From the IMG/VR virus record IMGVR_UViG_3300017741_000086, positions 1 to 20,003 of that record: a stretch of DNA of 20,003 nt. One strand, given 5' to 3'. The translations under genes and the position numbers were made by a program. Position 1 is the stretch's first letter; every line of letters begins with the position of its first letter. This document shows positions 9,383-14,413 of this stretch, piece by piece. Source of the DNA: a virus. The notes beneath the pieces are model-generated. The model was not told where the DNA came from, ran no database searches, and saw only the letters and a program-made list of their open reading frames with translations.

Positions 9383-11320
9383 TTAATGGATCTCGGACCA
9401 ACGCTTTCCTACAGAAGGTTCAGCTAGAGGCGGAATATCTCCCAGCCACTTAGCTTCGGCGCTTTCCATTACTTGTTTTAGCTGGTCCGCCCACTGCTGC
9501 GCCTTATCTTCACGAACAAGTAAGAGAATTTCATCGTGGATACAAGCTGCAATTTTTACTTCCTGTTCACCAGCTTCAAGAACCTTTGGCCAGAGGTTTC
9601 CTAGAGCGCATTTAAGGATGGCCGCACCAGCACCTTGAATTGGAGTGTTGCACCTTACCGTAAGGCGGTTCATGTCACCTGGCAGAAAGCGCCGCATATC
9701 AGAGCCTGGGATACGAATTTCGGCCCACCGGTTACTTGCTGTCTTTGATGCGTCTGCAGCATTCTGGTTTTGCCACTGCCTCACACCTGCATAAGTGCTC
9801 AACCATTGGTTACGAATTGTTGCAGCGGCTTCAACCGTCATGGTGACACCAGAGCTAGCAGCGTAATCACGCAAGCCTTTAGCGCCTGACCCATACAGCA
9901 AACCAAAATTGGCGCTTTTCGCAATCTGGCGAGTGCAGCCAATTGCCTCAGCGGTAACCGTGTGGAGGTCTTCACCAGCCTGGAACGCCTTGGTCATCTT
10001 TTCATCCTGCGCCACTGCTGCAGCGAGCCGAAGTTCCATCTGCCCAAAATCCGCATCCACAAGCAGCCAACCATCAGGAGCTTCAACACATTGCCGAAAC
10101 TCTGTATCACGGGGAATTTGCTGGTTGTTGGGCTTGATGCAGGACATACGGCCTGATTCCGCTCCAAGCTGGAGGTAGCTGGCACGTACAAAGCCACCTG
10201 GGTCCATTTTTTCAAGGATCCCTTCAGCCATTTGACGACGCTTTTCACTTTTCTTCCACGCCAAATAGGTCTGTATGACATGGTGATCCGCAGCGTAATC
10301 CTGAAGTGCTGCCCTACTAGCACTAGGCTTACCTGTTTTATTGTCCTTTGGCACTGTCCCCAGAAGTGCTGTGAACTTTTCTAACAATTGCTTGGGACTA
10401 CTTAAGTTAAAGCCTGCTTCTAGCTTGGTCCCACGGCGAGCATCACCCGTAGCTTTTGGCCTGAGGTTAAACGCTTTCGGCGCCGTTTCAATCTGTTCAA
10501 TTTCAGCGTACCACTTCTCGTAGTCTGAGTCTTCGTGCCCCATTTGCGTGACAAGGTCTCGAAGCTTTGAAAGTCTTTGAGTATTTGCTGCTTCTCTTGG
10601 CAGCTTATGTTCCGCTGGAAGCGCATTATCAAGTTCCCGTAAAAAGTCTCTACCGAGCGCATGAATGTCGTGTTGGTAATCAGTACAAAGCTGCTCAAGA
10701 CTGGTACGGTTCCAAGGAAGCCCGGTACGCCACATCTGGGCCATAGCGGGAAGTGCTCTGCACTCTAATGTATAAGCTTCAGACAGCCGTGCATTTTGTA
10801 GTGCTGCTGTAAGTGGATAGTCCAGCTGCAGCAGCACCTCAACATCTTTAGCGGCATAGACCAACTGGTCTCGACTTAAGACTGGAACGCTCCAATCAGA
10901 CCGCTGCTGTTCCTTGTCGAGTTCAATTTTGAGAACACGTTTGGCCACATGGGCCAGTCCGTGTCTGAGGTTAGGCGTTCCATTGTGGTGGAGCTTACTG
11001 GCAAGCATGGTGCAGCCAATCCGGCCACGCACATAGATGTTATGTTCCTGCAACCAACCAAGATCAAACACTGCATTGTGCGCTAACCAGTAACGCTCAC
11101 CATTGGTAAAGAACAGTCGGAGTTTTTGCCAGCCATCTGCATCTAGTTCAAAGCAGTCAATGATGACGATAGTTTTACTAACTTCGCATCCCAGCTGGAT
11201 TAAACGGAGTTTGCCTATTTCAGGCTGTAGCTGGAGCGTTTCAGTATCGAAGGCGATAGAAATGGATGTCGAGATCTTCTGCAGATGCTCGACACCGAAA
11301 AACAAGTTGTAGTCAGACAT
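9383..11320 (-). CDS. polA: DNA polymerase A (family A) with 3'-5' exonuclease
   Basis: A 645-residue replicative polymerase. The N-terminal proofreading exonuclease is intact: Exo I D25-x-E27 (FDTET), Exo II HNAVFD with D86, Exo III Y155-x3-D159. The polymerase motifs are also complete. Motif A is VDADFGQMELR with catalytic D424. Motif B has R464 and K468, then F472, Y476 and G477. Motif C is HDE at 595-597. F472 matches the position of E. coli Phe762. The finger segment between HTVTAEAIG and motif B is about ten residues shorter than in bacterial Pol I. There is no 5' nuclease domain, as usual in phages. The 140-aa GW-repeat gene ends nine bases upstream and no clear ribosome-binding site is present. 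Sequence alone strongly supports the call. Confidence 0.96.
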   Translation of the reverse strand: MSDYNLFFGVEHLQKISTSISIAFDTETLQLQPEIGKLRLIQLGCEVSKTIVIIDCFELDADGWQKLRLFFTNGERYWLAHNAVFDLGWLQEHNIYVRGRIGCTMLASKLHHNGTPNLRHGLAHVAKRVLKIELDKEQQRSDWSVPVLSRDQLVYAAKDVEVLLQLDYPLTAALQNARLSEAYTLECRALPAMAQMWRTGLPWNRTSLEQLCTDYQHDIHALGRDFLRELDNALPAEHKLPREAANTQRLSKLRDLVTQMGHEDSDYEKWYAEIEQIETAPKAFNLRPKATGDARRGTKLEAGFNLSSPKQLLEKFTALLGTVPKDNKTGKPSASRAALQDYAADHHVIQTYLAWKKSEKRRQMAEGILEKMDPGGFVRASYLQLGAESGRMSCIKPNNQQIPRDTEFRQCVEAPDGWLLVDADFGQMELRLAAAVAQDEKMTKAFQAGEDLHTVTAEAIGCTRQIAKSANFGLLYGSGAKGLRDYAASSGVTMTVEAAATIRNQWLSTYAGVRQWQNQNAADASKTASNRWAEIRIPGSDMRRFLPGDMNRLTVRCNTPIQGAGAAILKCALGNLWPKVLEAGEQEVKIAACIHDEILLLVREDKAQQWADQLKQVMESAEAKWLGDIPPLAEPSVGKRWSEIH

Positions 11321-11754: not shown

Positions 11755-11991
11755 TTAAAGAGGAAAAGTTTCGTAAGAGGTTTGCAAGAGGTTTTTGATG
11801 ATTACCTCTAGCTCTGCAACCCTATCATTGGAGTCAAGGTCGCAGACAATTGGGACTTCAGCTGTAAACCATTTGTAACCACAGGCTGGGCATTTACGGC
11901 CCCGCACAATGCTGCTTTCAAAACGAGGTTTGGTTTGAGTGACCCACCGATCACCTTTTTGCGGTGACCGGTTGCAGTCTGGACAGTTCAT
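11755..11991 (-). CDS. NrdR-like zinc-ribbon protein (copy 2)
   Basis: A 78-residue protein with C3-x2-C6 (NCPDC) and C34-x2-C37 (RKCPACG), followed by WFTAEVP. The spacing and the F-T-A-E segment follow the zinc-ribbon half of NrdR even more closely than copy 1 at 7417-7641. The rest is a short helix (DRVAELEVIIKNLLQT). No ATP cone is present. It has no ribosome-binding site of its own: the ATG at 11991 overlaps the stop of a six-codon minigene. Likely DNA or RNA binding. A role as regulator of nucleotide or replication genes is inference. Confidence 0.75.
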   Translation of the reverse strand: MNCPDCNRSPQKGDRWVTQTKPRFESSIVRGRKCPACGYKWFTAEVPIVCDLDSNDRVAELEVIIKNLLQTSYETFPL

Positions 11992-12008
11992 GCGAGAGGA
12001 TCAGTCAT
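11988..12008 (-). CDS. Six-codon coupling minigene (MTDPLA)
   Basis: A strong ribosome-binding site (AGGAGG at 12016-12021) precedes ATG 12008, which forms TGATG with the stop of the 200-aa gene. The frame is only MTDPLA and stops at TGA 11988-11990, overlapping the ATG of the zinc-ribbon gene in ATGA. The MTD start is shared with neighbouring genes, so it may be the stub of a lost gene that now delivers ribosomes to the zinc-ribbon gene. Confidence 0.5.
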   Translation of the reverse strand: MTDPLA

Positions 12009-12610
12009 CAGTTGTCCTCCTTTTGGGTAATGGGAGCTTCAGAAATCAGCTGTAACAGCGTGTCACGCTGACGGAGGCGGGTGGCGGCTTTGGCGGCGGC
12101 GGTGGCGGCGGTGGACCAAGCGGCGTAGGCGGCGGACCAAGCGGCACTAACGGTGGCAGAGGCGGCGGCACTGGCGTCGGTGGCGTCGGTGGCGGCGGTG
12201 GTGGCGGCAGCCTCAGGCCATTCCTTACCATCTGCTAACAGATCCATCCCTTCAATGACTGGGCCAATAACCGCTTGAATATCATCAGGAACGGGCGGCA
12301 ACGCTCGCAGCTCTGCAGCAAGAAACTTCCAGCCGACGGGGCTCAGATCTTTACCGTCACATGCGACCGCCTGGGGAATTGCAGCAAAGAACGAAAGTGC
12401 TTCATCCGCTGGCAACCCCTCAAAAATAGATTCGGCAATACGGGTGACCATCAGCGGAATACCGTATTCGTTCTCGATAAATTCAGGATCGTCGCGACCG
12501 TTGGCAAGACAGCCGATACAACAGGTCTTGTAAGAGCCTTGCGCAACGCGATCAGCTTTAACGTGAGCAACGACTTCGGATTGAAGCTTTTGAAAGTTTT
12601 TAGTAATCAC
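12008..12610 (-). CDS. 200-aa protein with Ala/Trp-rich helical segment
   Basis: A 200-residue protein starting at GTG 12610, preceded by GGGG (12619-12622) and overlapping the upstream stop in GTGA. Residues 1-130 form a mixed domain with C30, C31 and C34 (TCCIGC), then an EYGIPLMVTRIAESIF helix and a PQAVACDGKDLS loop. Residues 133-177 are mostly Ala, Thr and Ser with W158 and W165 and repeated AAW/AAY steps, predicted to be a long helix. The C-terminal TQKEDN codons encode the ribosome-binding site of the following minigene. Ala-rich helices of this type occur in several phage proteins without known function. I do not recognise the N-terminal domain. Confidence 0.65.
   Translation of the reverse strand: MITKNFQKLQSEVVAHVKADRVAQGSYKTCCIGCLANGRDDPEFIENEYGIPLMVTRIAESIFEGLPADEALSFFAAIPQAVACDGKDLSPVGWKFLAAELRALPPVPDDIQAVIGPVIEGMDLLADGKEWPEAAATTAATDATDASAAASATVSAAWSAAYAAWSTAATAAAKAATRLRQRDTLLQLISEAPITQKEDN
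12072..12212 (+). repeat. GGN-rich low-complexity tract (codes poly-Ala on - strand)
   Basis: About 140 bases are dominated by GGC, GGT and GCG steps on the + strand, with a repeated GGCGGACCAAGCGGC-like unit. On the - strand they encode the Ala/Trp-rich helix of the 200-aa protein. Many closely spaced GG pairs make two-tier G-quadruplexes on the + strand possible. The tract is prone to slippage. Confidence 0.8.
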
Positions 12611-12816
12611 TGGTTGTTCCCCTTTTGTTGTTGTTGTCGATGATCGTCCAAGTCGTCAACCAACTTGCTCATCTCTAAATACCACTGGAAGTTCACATCC
12701 CTGCCTGCGTCAATCAGCCTGCCAGCGGCTAACACAAGTTCATGCAACCGTTTGGTTTTCCAAATGTACTCTGGCTCGATTCCAATAGGCGGACGAGAGG
12801 GGTTGGATTCAGTCAT
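12607..12816 (-). CDS. 69-aa small phage protein of unknown function
   Basis: ATG 12816 is preceded by GGAGAA (12823-12828) encoded within the LENNND end of the upstream gene. The 69-residue product has an N-terminal RPPIGIEPEYIWKTKRL, then a helix AAGRLIDAGR and an NFQWYLEMSKLVDDL segment. I recognise the general pattern of a small phage family in which an I-x-P-x-x-I-W start is followed by a helix and a second W motif; its function is not known to me. Its last codons (KGNNQ) encode the ribosome-binding site of the 200-aa gene, and its stop forms GTGA with that gene's GTG. Confidence 0.65.
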   Translation of the reverse strand: MTESNPSRPPIGIEPEYIWKTKRLHELVLAAGRLIDAGRDVNFQWYLEMSKLVDDLDDHRQQQQKGNNQ

Positions 12817-13135
12817 TGTTGTTCTCCAGTTGGTTGATTAGTTTAAGAAGTTCTTCTTCACTAGCTCCACCAATCAGTCGTTCAAGTTTCTCTTTAGGTG
12901 TTTCAATAAACTTCCACCTACGATGGTTGATTTTGCCATAGATAGTCTCATAGACATCGCCACCCACAGCGCCATAGATATCGCCATTGATGTCGCCACT
13001 TACAGCGCCATAGATATCTCCATTGACATTGCCATAGATGTGGCCAAAGACAGAGCGGACTCTCCAGCCCAGGGCATCCCCGTGCTCAAAACTAACAAGC
13101 TTTAGGACTTCTTCAAGTGTGATTTGTTTGGTCAT
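12809..13135 (-). CDS. 108-aa tetrapeptide-repeat protein (copy B)
   Basis: I set the start at ATG 13135 because AGGAGA (13143-13148) lies just upstream and the first residues (MTKQITLEE) match those of the paralogue at 13743-14066; a longer frame to 13267 has no such support. Residues 30-69 are ten unbroken tetrads of the form x-G-x-[I/V], probably a regular beta-solenoid. The flanks are a short N-terminal helix (LEEVLKLV) and a C-terminal W-x-F-[IV]-E segment followed by a helix EEELLKLINQL. The DNA shows a 36-base repeat (12966 and 13002), equal to three tetrads. The last codons carry the ribosome-binding site and start of the next gene. No function is known to me; a scaffold or binding role is a guess. 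Confidence 0.75.
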   Translation of the reverse strand: MTKQITLEEVLKLVSFEHGDALGWRVRSVFGHIYGNVNGDIYGAVSGDINGDIYGAVGGDVYETIYGKINHRRWKFIETPKEKLERLIGGASEEELLKLINQLENNND

Positions 13136-13172
13136 CAGTTGTTCTCCTGTGTGGTGGGGGTGGTTGAACGTG

Positions 13173-13463
13173 TCATTCAAGGGGGGATGCGATGCAGGTG
13201 TTTGCGTTTTCTTTGATCCATTCAATCGCTTCACTGATAGATAAATCAGGAAAGTCTCTGATGTCAAAATTTCCAGTGGCTAACCAGAAAACTTCATCGG
13301 GGTCACAAAATCCCGTCTCAACATCACGCCAGCCAAAGCCGGTCATTCGATCCACAACTGTGATGGATCCCCATGGTGCGTGATGAGCCTGTTGACTATC
13401 GCCGTCATACATTTGAACATCGTTAAAAACCAAGTCCTTAATCTTTTGTGTTAGGTCAGTCAT
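13173..13463 (-). CDS. 96-aa protein of unknown function
   Basis: ATG 13463 forms TGATG with the upstream stop and is preceded by AGGAGG (13471-13476). The product is acidic and 96 residues long: an N-terminal helix TQKIKDLVFND, a beta-rich middle (GSITVVDRMTGFGWRDVETG), then DLSISEAIEWIKENANT. The last helix has the EAIEWIKEN pattern, faintly echoed by EQVIEWMKAN in the next gene upstream, so the two may share a distant origin. No family recognised. A 37-base gap with a copy of the duplicated handle follows it. Confidence 0.65.
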   Translation of the reverse strand: MTDLTQKIKDLVFNDVQMYDGDSQQAHHAPWGSITVVDRMTGFGWRDVETGFCDPDEVFWLATGNFDIRDFPDLSISEAIEWIKENANTCIASPLE

Positions 13464-13750
13464 CAGTTGTCCTCCTGTGTTGGGCGCATTGCTTCTCGAA
13501 GGTCTTTCAGAAGTTCGTCCTCTTTAATGTAAGCATTTGAAAAATCATCGTAGAGATAATCATAACTTTCATGAGAGTCATGATTCATTAGGTTTGCTTT
13601 CATCCACTCAATCACCTGCTCCAACTGTTCATCACGACCTAAATCGTAAGCGGCTCGCATGTCATCTTCGTCGTAGGGGTTGCTGTATCCAGGCTCGTCA
13701 CCGTGGATTTTGTCCATCATCTCATCAGTCAGTGGGTGTTGGTCAGTCAC
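13463..13750 (-). CDS. 95-aa acidic protein of unknown function
   Basis: I place the start at GTG 13750 because GGAGG (13757-13761) lies six bases before it and the resulting MTDQHPL start matches the MTD/MTE starts of neighbours. A frame open to 13801 has no such site. The product is strongly acidic with a helix DMRAAYDLGRDEQLEQVIEW and an Asp/Tyr-rich stretch (SYDYLYDDFSNAY). It overlaps the upstream gene by eight bases. The C-terminal TQEDN codons encode the ribosome-binding site of the following gene. No family recognised; an acidic DNA-mimic role is conceivable but unsupported. Confidence 0.65.
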   Translation of the reverse strand: MTDQHPLTDEMMDKIHGDEPGYSNPYDEDDMRAAYDLGRDEQLEQVIEWMKANLMNHDSHESYDYLYDDFSNAYIKEDELLKDLREAMRPTQEDN

Positions 13751-14066
13751 TGTTTTCCTCCAGTTGATTGAATGCTTTGAGTAGTTGATCCTTGTCGGCA
13801 CCTTCGTCGATCAGACGCTTAAGTTTGTCCTTTGGGTTTTCAACGAATTGCCATTCGCGTCCGTTGATGGTGCCACCGACGTTGCCGTAAACACTGCTCA
13901 TAACATCGCCTATGACACTGCCCACACTGCCATCGATATCGCCTATGACATTGCACCACACACTGCCATAGACACTGGTTTTGACGTGCCTAACTCGCCA
14001 TGCTCCCGCGACAAACTCAAACTCAACAAGCTTGAGGGCTTCTTCAAGTGTGATTTGTTTGGTCAT
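13743..14066 (-). CDS. 107-aa tetrapeptide-repeat protein (copy A)
   Basis: ATG 14066 follows AGGAGG (14074-14079). The protein is a paralogue of the one at 12809-13135: the same MTKQITLEE start, a central run of x-G-x-[I/V] tetrads (about residues 30-68) broken by one three-residue step, then REWQFVENP and a C-terminal helix ending NQLEENSD. Some tetrads have lost the glycine (for example WCNV, MSSV), so this copy is more degenerate. The repeat is expected to fold as a short beta-solenoid capped by helices. It leads the seven-start cluster. Function unknown. Confidence 0.75.
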   Translation of the reverse strand: MTKQITLEEALKLVEFEFVAGAWRVRHVKTSVYGSVWCNVIGDIDGSVGSVIGDVMSSVYGNVGGTINGREWQFVENPKDKLKRLIDEGADKDQLLKAFNQLEENSD

Positions 14067-14146
14067 TAGTTGTCCTCCTGCGTGGTGGTAGTGGTGGTTG
14101 AAGTTCGTCGATTGGTTGTTGGTTCTGAGTAGTTAGTGGGTGTTGG

Positions 14147-14413
14147 CTAGTCATCGTCAAAAGTAATTGGGGGAATAACGCACCAATCGGTGATCCAGGG
14201 CAACATGCGTAGCACCTGTTCCTGCGTTGGTGCGTTTGTGTGGTCTAGTGGTTCGTCCCAGAGAATGACTGCCTGACAATGGGCAGAGTCAAACTCAGGT
14301 GGATCTAGATGTGTTGCAGGTAAGACCTGAACAGCATCATCAACAATGGCCTGAACAAACAGGGCATCGGATCCTCTGGTGTAGCTGTAGCTGATTAGTT
14401 GAGCGTGGGCCAT
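14147..14413 (-). CDS. 88-aa protein of unknown function
   Basis: ATG 14413 is preceded by GGAG with seven bases between and gives an 88-residue protein (MAHAQLISYSYTRG onward). A GTG at 14449, touching the upstream stop, is possible but has no ribosome-binding site. The product has two beta-rich parts (DALFVQAIVDDAVQVLPATHL and CQAVILWDE) and an acidic end (FDDD). No family recognised. About 80 bases without a gene follow, rich in G and T on the + strand and ending in the leader of the tetrapeptide-repeat gene. Confidence 0.6.
   Translation of the reverse strand: MAHAQLISYSYTRGSDALFVQAIVDDAVQVLPATHLDPPEFDSAHCQAVILWDEPLDHTNAPTQEQVLRMLPWITDWCVIPPITFDDD

Follow-up and report, generated by a model that had tools for sequence, protein, structure and literature searches.

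A siphovirus-type phage probably carries a rack of exchangeable small-gene cassettes, with short-homology recombination acting at a joint that combines the stop codon of one gene with the ribosome-binding site and start codon of the next. The array lies on the minus strand (14078-11988) of the window, the 20-kb IMG/VR phage fragment (20,003 nucleotides) analyzed here, and holds six small genes and one 6-codon frame (the ‘minigene’). How small phage genes without assigned function enter and leave genomes is a long-standing question; to our knowledge, border homology is usually not found, so that illegitimate recombination is assumed. The record in this case is unusually complete: it includes the site both empty and filled, intermediate states, scars, and stretches of DNA common to unrelated phage types. 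It gives a testable sequence for accessory-gene exchange in cyanophages, and a motif for finding further arrays.

The array and its start-site joint

A near copy of GGAGGACAAC-N1-2-RTG (8-10 of 10 matches) occurs at all seven array starts, always with one or two bases between motif and start codon, as an earlier note on this DNA had claimed for seven consecutive genes. Scoring every RTG triplet in the window, on either strand, gave exactly seven with at least 8/10, and these were the array starts. The other plausible gene starts (n = 27) scored 7/10 at best, a value reached by two genes, and most had a Shine-Dalgarno match of no more than 3-4 bases. The core genes thus lack such sites, as the note had stated, and strong sites do not precede most other genes of the window. 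Plain counting of the motif as a 10-mer with two mismatches anywhere gave no enrichment in the window (17 vs. 16.0 in shuffles) and was discarded as uninformative. Because these loose counts match the shuffles, the signal comes from where the copies stand, at gene starts, and from how nearly exact they are. The features of the region are as follows.

14147..14413, minus strand: conserved upstream flank gene, 88 aa, MAHAQ...; homology of the relatives' flank stops at 14147-14154
14044..14154, minus strand: remnant cassette, an HPLT-family-like start (ATGACTAGCCAACACCCACTAACT) joined to the tail of a different gene, one that contig L036 has
14064..14078, minus strand: joint 1, GGAGGACAACTAATG; GGAGGACAAC-TA-ATG, 10/10
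13743..14066, minus strand: cassette gene 1, 107 aa, G-[DSN]-[VI]-x tetrapeptide-like repeat family (MTKQITLEEALKLV)
13748..13761, minus strand: joint 2, GGAGGAAAACAGTG; GGAGGAAAAC-A-GTG, 9/10
13463..13750, minus strand: cassette gene 2, 95 aa, HPLT family (M-T-x-Q-HPLTDE ... QLEQVIEW ... AMRPTQEDN)
13461..13475, minus strand: joint 3, GGAGGACAACTGATG; GGAGGACAAC-TG-ATG, 10/10
13173..13463, minus strand: cassette gene 3, 96 aa, with homologues in four contigs
13133..13147, minus strand: joint 4, GGAGAACAACTGATG; GGAGAACAAC-TG-ATG, 9/10; also the end of a 503-bp block common to the window and podovirus contig L012
12809..13135, minus strand: cassette gene 4, 108 aa, tetrapeptide-like repeat family; 98% identity in L176
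12814..12827, minus strand: joint 5, GGAGAACAACAATG; GGAGAACAAC-A-ATG, 9/10
12607..12816, minus strand: cassette gene 5, 69 aa; 99% identity, with matches only in L176/L187
12608..12622, minus strand: joint 6, GGGGAACAACCAGTG; GGGGAACAAC-CA-GTG, 8/10
12008..12610, minus strand: cassette gene 6, 200 aa, a conserved N-terminal part followed by an Ala-rich tail; 11-member family
12006..12020, minus strand: joint 7, GGAGGACAACTGATG; GGAGGACAAC-TG-ATG, 10/10; docked on the DUF3310 start
11988..12008, minus strand: ‘minigene’ MTDPLA followed by a stop, a DUF3310 (T7 gp1.7-like) remnant
11755..11991, minus strand: conserved downstream flank gene, 78 aa, zinc-ribbon, NrdR-like (PF22811 just under cut-off)

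The joint lies inside the last codons of five upstream genes, whose products end in LEENSD, QEDN, LENNND, KGNNQ and QKEDN, and on this point too the note was right. The exceptions are cassette gene 3, whose stop lies 26 nt before its next joint, and joint 1, which is preceded by a truncated reading frame. The stop region of the upstream flank gene (...GACGATGACTAG) is the upstream docking edge of the array, and homology of the downstream flank picks up again at 12011-12003 in all relatives. In the remnant cassette, 14140-14062 matches L036 at 90%; past the joint, the gene there differs.

Cassette gene 1 is a paralogue of gene 4 (12-member family alignment), and the HPLT family of gene 2 is the commonest in arrays, with 31 members. 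The protein of gene 3 is 99% identical in L012, a T7-like podovirus, and in L175, 93% in L176 and 87% in L036. With dN/dS of about 0.3 for gene 6 and mostly about 0.2 for DUF3310, both are under purifying selection. The minigene, listed as a gene in the note, does have a start with a joint, but it is not a separate gene: a 222-bp in-frame deletion between two GATCCT repeats reduced a DUF3310 gene that is intact (80 aa; PF11753, E 2.5e-20) in L036 and in all empty-site relatives. DUF3310 is the T7 gp1.7-like nucleotide kinase family. Searches of Pfam, PHROGs and PADLOC returned no solid match for the functions of the six cassette genes, and AlphaFold models were too poor to use as search queries (mean pLDDT 57 for gene 4 and 49 for gene 6).

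Joints have the general form (CCA/CAA)n-CACAGGAGGACAACTGATGACT(G/A)A and are alike over about 20-40 bp; the consensus of 22 family representatives, two or three of which may be non-array genes, is (CCA)n-CACAGGAGGACAACTGATGACTRA. Stop and start overlap (TGATG, TAATG or ATGA) in 50 of 73 non-redundant joints, and in 7 more the upstream stop is the TGA of ACTGA, so that an incoming frame is terminated at the joint in two of its three possible registers. A frame arriving in the remaining register is fused in frame to the next gene, as seen in one case in which two HPLT starts are fused (L032:9957-10328). Since the stop is encoded within the joint, unrelated proteins share ends such as QEDN, LENN or QEEN, a warning that DNA joints can impose short shared protein tails. 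The joint folded no better than shuffles and held no inverted repeat; the single hairpin observed per array sits at its upstream edge, in L039, L065, L066, L069, L072 and L080.

Empty sites, filled sites and breakpoints

The metagenomic contigs that we compared included 80 relatives gathered by DNA polymerase. In about 18 contigs with a polymerase 92-98% identical to that of the window, the array is absent, and sequence matching the window from 14154 upward runs straight into the DUF3310 gene (...GAATTTGATGACTGATCCTGTC...). The two genes overlap there in GATGACTGA, of which TGA is the upstream stop and ATG the DUF3310 start. More distant relatives (78-79%) have the same overlap and no array; because this outgroup is empty too, we take the empty state as ancestral and the arrays as derived. 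About 12 relatives carry inserts of varied content at that spot, from one gene (L038, L069 and L080) to 11 (L036). While the flanks are about 90% identical, the genes between joints were gained, lost, duplicated and reordered, which answers a check proposed in the note, namely whether relatives differ in gene content between joints. A constant gene order with diverged borders, which the note had named as refuting, is not what the relatives have. L036, with a polymerase 99% identical to that of the window, holds relatives of window genes 2, 3, 4 and 6 in a changed order, gene 6 being present twice and gene 2-type genes three times.

A second docking site precedes an 84-aa gene near window 8755-8700, whose start is also ATGACT in relatives. 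This site holds three cassettes in L054, one in L049 and a remnant in L077, where the joint now stands before the core gene. Docking at this other ATGACT gene is one of the scars that fit the cassette reading, together with a tandem joint and the in-frame fusion of two starts. The joints were gained together with the array. DUF3310 at empty sites has no joint, and a gene with joints on both sides in L014 (T4-like) is bare in the cultured T7-like phage S-RIP1, at 88.8% DNA identity; for these reasons, the joint goes with the array, not with the gene.

An all-against-all comparison of 32 array loci yielded 257 unique alignment ends near joints. Ends fell on a joint in both sequences in 59 cases, compared with 6.5 expected (maximum 17 in 1,000 random shifts), and this was also true under stricter cuts (at least 90% identity, at least 100 bp), with 25 of 109 ends on joints vs. 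2.9 expected. Breakpoints inside the joint, another check named in the note, were thus found. For example, window 13627-13131 matches L012 with 97.6% identity over 503 bp, and past the joint the genes differ; outside the array, L012 has no detectable DNA in common with the window. The L012-type arrangement was seen again in a second metagenome (L031/L175). L069 and L074, which could be variants within one population, are 99.7% identical over 4.8 kb from a joint onward, with unrelated genes ahead of it. The window and L036 have a common 80-bp tail ahead of a joint; beyond it lies gene 1 in the window and gene 3 in L036. About three quarters of the breakpoints lie off joints, and some of these coincide with different short repeats (the HPLT core at 13627, GATCCT in DUF3310). 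Joints are favoured as breakpoints, not exclusive, and the off-joint breakpoints in short repeats fit homology-driven exchange in general.

Cassettes have been transferred between unrelated phage types. The core genes of the window encode a Pol I-type DNA polymerase, a primase/helicase, a single-strand binding protein, ThyX and a sigma factor. Because the nearest named phages are Synechococcus phage S-SKS1 for the array genes and S-CBS4 for the primase, a picocyanobacterial host is likely. Joint arrays also occur in the T7-like podovirus contigs L012 and L031/L175 (L012 codes for a T7-type RNA polymerase, a primase/helicase and an exonuclease) and in the T4-like cyanomyovirus contig L014 (primase 96% identical to that of S-WAM2; ribonucleotide reductase genes). 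Further arrays are found in siphovirus-type or other contigs, namely L183/L195 (terminase, portal and a ThyX-like gene), L176 and L194, which has nine joints within 3.7 kb of its 56 kb. Cultured S-SKS1, a phage of Synechococcus WH7803, has two perfect joints. Across the T7-like, T4-like and siphovirus-type contigs and S-SKS1, genes of at least 15 unrelated families have the joint in front of them. In search of a host source, genomes of 84,980 species were scanned for the joint, with 51 scattered matches in Olsenella, Nostoc, Arthrobacter and others. No match carried Synechococcus or Prochlorococcus in its title, and we attribute the 51 to chance and to ordinary ribosome-binding sites. For the repeat protein, 386 cyanobacterial genomes gave just two weak matches. 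These searches found no host source, and at the sensitivity used the cyanobacterial genomes were without such arrays.

Proposed cassette exchange and alternative explanations

In the exchange that we propose, a cassette runs from one start codon up to the next ribosome-binding site, and the joint does three jobs, providing the upstream stop, a strong Shine-Dalgarno site and the start of the next gene. Like joints would allow ordinary short-homology recombination between arrays, within or between phages, during co-infection. Whole genes would be added, deleted, duplicated or replaced with every product still expressible. Arrays dock where a core gene starts with ATGACT, and would be transcribed as one unit. 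That joint homology drives the exchange, rather than selection merely keeping survivors, is something we infer, as are the recombination activity with its pathway and recombinase, co-transcription, and the functions and benefit of the genes. The turnover among relatives supports the cassette rack suggested in the note, whereas its statement that the joints let recombination swap genes is a reading of patterns.

Limited searches recognized no recombinase in a near-complete 43-kb relative. Close to its array, the phage of L176 encodes a Sak-like annealing protein together with an exonuclease, and a frame next to them looks RusA-resolvase-like by eye; no Sak-like protein turned up in the window's 43-kb relative. 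Rad52-like phage recombinases act on short, diverged homology (PMC3945230). More tentatively, and with somewhat less than even confidence, we suggest that marine picocyanobacterial phages of the podo-, myo- and siphovirus types share one standard joint, kept for trade and instant expression of accessory genes. If true, this would be a community-wide standard for cassette exchange without a dedicated site-specific recombinase, and it would also stamp a common C-terminal tail (QEDN/LENN) on unrelated proteins.

The joint could instead be a dedicated translation signal, in the form of a strong or regulated ribosome-binding element common to co-expressed early genes, as proposed for the start-associated SAS repeats discussed below, with random recombination from which intact signals survive. 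A Shine-Dalgarno match of 4-7 bases at the correct spacing, which core genes mostly lack, would fit such a signal, as would a stop/start overlap suggestive of translational coupling and the purifying selection on the genes (dN/dS about 0.3). However, identity among the 22 family representatives extends far past the rRNA-pairing bases (CACA before, an ACAACT spacer, ATGACTRA after). A control with a permuted spacer and the same Shine-Dalgarno and start was found in 4 viral contig stretches vs. 29 for the real joint, a contrast inflated by kinship among the 29, and other short repeats that are not gene starts are also used as breakpoints. We consider this explanation unlikely. Selection for intact genes or a special translation signal could also keep joints alike, and random recombination with survival of intact genes also predicts breakpoints at gene borders.

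Tandem duplication of an ancestral cassette in one lineage, with joints inherited and genes diverged past recognition, would account for the many paralogues (a single array can have two or three HPLT or repeat genes), but at least 15 families have no detectable similarity, near-identical blocks lie in unrelated phage backbones, and the same gene occurs with and without joints; this origin seems very improbable. Hardly credible is the insertion of cassettes at the joint by a site-specific system (an integron-like integrase, homing or transposition). Insertion at the two docking sites is precise, and a leader duplication flanks the L054 and L049 inserts, but tyrosine recombinase (PF00589) is absent from seven records including those of 43 kb and 56 kb, the joint has no fold or inverted repeat, and the duplications are long leaders or plain homology with no fixed target-site size.

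Relation to known systems

The earlier note knew of no description of this layout, yet related ones exist in the SAS of cluster K mycobacteriophages, the PeSLs of T4-type phages and the older idea of ‘boundary sequences’. The SAS is a 13-bp asymmetric repeat with AGGAG in ribosome-binding position; each genome has 11-19 copies, which lie a few bases ahead of non-structural genes that are unrelated to one another (PMC3203893). Like the joint, it stands in ribosome-binding position before unrelated genes and extends further than rRNA pairing needs (PMC3203893). Its consensus GGGATAGGAGCCC, however, differs from that of the joint (CACAGGAGGACAACTGATGACTRA), and SAS genes usually follow gaps of more than 50 bp, whereas joints mostly overlap the upstream stop (50/73). 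SASs are spread over half the genome and joints are clustered in one array. The cited portion of PMC3203893 reports no gene turnover at SAS borders, in contrast to the turnover at joints.

PeSLs consist of a promoter and terminator hairpins (Arbiol 2010 and Comeau 2014, via PMC4503421 and PMC3950731). Both PeSLs, which lie in hyperplastic regions, and joints are small repeats at gene borders where accessory genes are shuffled by recombination, and the gene gain and loss with breakpoints in the repeat that marks PeSLs is also found in the joint array. The joint does not have this promoter-plus-stem-loop build and is a ribosome-binding/start sequence without a hairpin; unlike PeSLs, it occurs at nearly every array gene and is common to T7-, T4- and siphovirus-type phages. 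Boundary sequences of mosaic phages (PMC3029335) likewise involve homologous recombination at short border sequences, as in the Brujita/Island3 event at about 50 bp of C-terminal homology, and in the arrays, too, the modules that are exchanged have a short sequence in common where they meet. They are said to be unidentifiable at most mosaic borders (PMC3029335); one joint, in contrast, serves all array borders and many phage types. Since the border-homology principle is already known (PMC3029335), the array is a variant of a known principle. It resembles T4 PeSLs and mycobacteriophage SASs and equals neither; what is new is one standard ribosome-binding/start joint for the whole array, common to phages of three builds.

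Integron arrays line up single-gene units and exchange them at one common site, and the joint array is alike in both respects; unlike in integrons, the start codon forms part of the joint site. We rejected an integron/attC mechanism, having found no integrase in records that may be fragments (one is near-complete, at 43 kb) and no attC-like fold. Finally, the ‘ORFanage’ of S-PM2 (PMC4503421) is a similar block of small ORFans in a cyanophage, with poor synteny and easily lost, and many of its ORFs also start with ATGACT. It was rejected as the same system, as the joint is absent (scores 2-7). The known deletion junction in this ORFanage has a short repeat, AACAACA.

Borders of the arrays

A hairpin, TGTACGGC-CCTCA-GCCGTACA, and a conserved leader stand ahead of the first cassette, at the upstream edge of the array, in L039, L065, L066, L069, L072 and L080. 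Together they look similar to the promoter early stem-loop (PeSL) of T4-type phages, and may act as terminator and promoter of the array. Arrays also have a second docking site:

window 8762-8700, also L054, L049 and L077: the site lies at a core gene whose counterparts in relatives start with ATGACT

In L054 and L049, a leader sequence (TTTGTACTGTGCTACTCTTCCTGGG...) is duplicated and flanks the inserts at this site.

Fused genes and tandem joints

Two N-termini of HPLT, the most frequent array gene family, are fused in frame in L032 (MTNQHPLTDK...MTNQHPLTDE; 9957-10328, minus strand). In L195, a tandem pair of joints (GGAGAATAACTGATGGAGGACAACTGATG; about 2085-2125, reverse-complement coordinates) encloses a micro-ORF, MEDN; this arrangement is probably a scar of recombination.

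The S-PM2 ORFanage

Many ORFans of the S-PM2 ORFanage (L192, AJ630128 5786-15450) start with ATGACT (MTD/MTE/MTN) and have overlapping stops; GGAGGACAAC is absent at its ATGACT-starting ORFans. These starts perhaps represent a sister joint. A short repeat, AACAACA, lies at the junction of a known spontaneous deletion in this ORFanage.

The gene 6 family

In gene 6, the last cassette gene (window 12610-12008), and its family (alignment A2), the first 130 residues are well conserved, followed by an Ala-rich tail of varying length, encoded by GCC-rich repeats.
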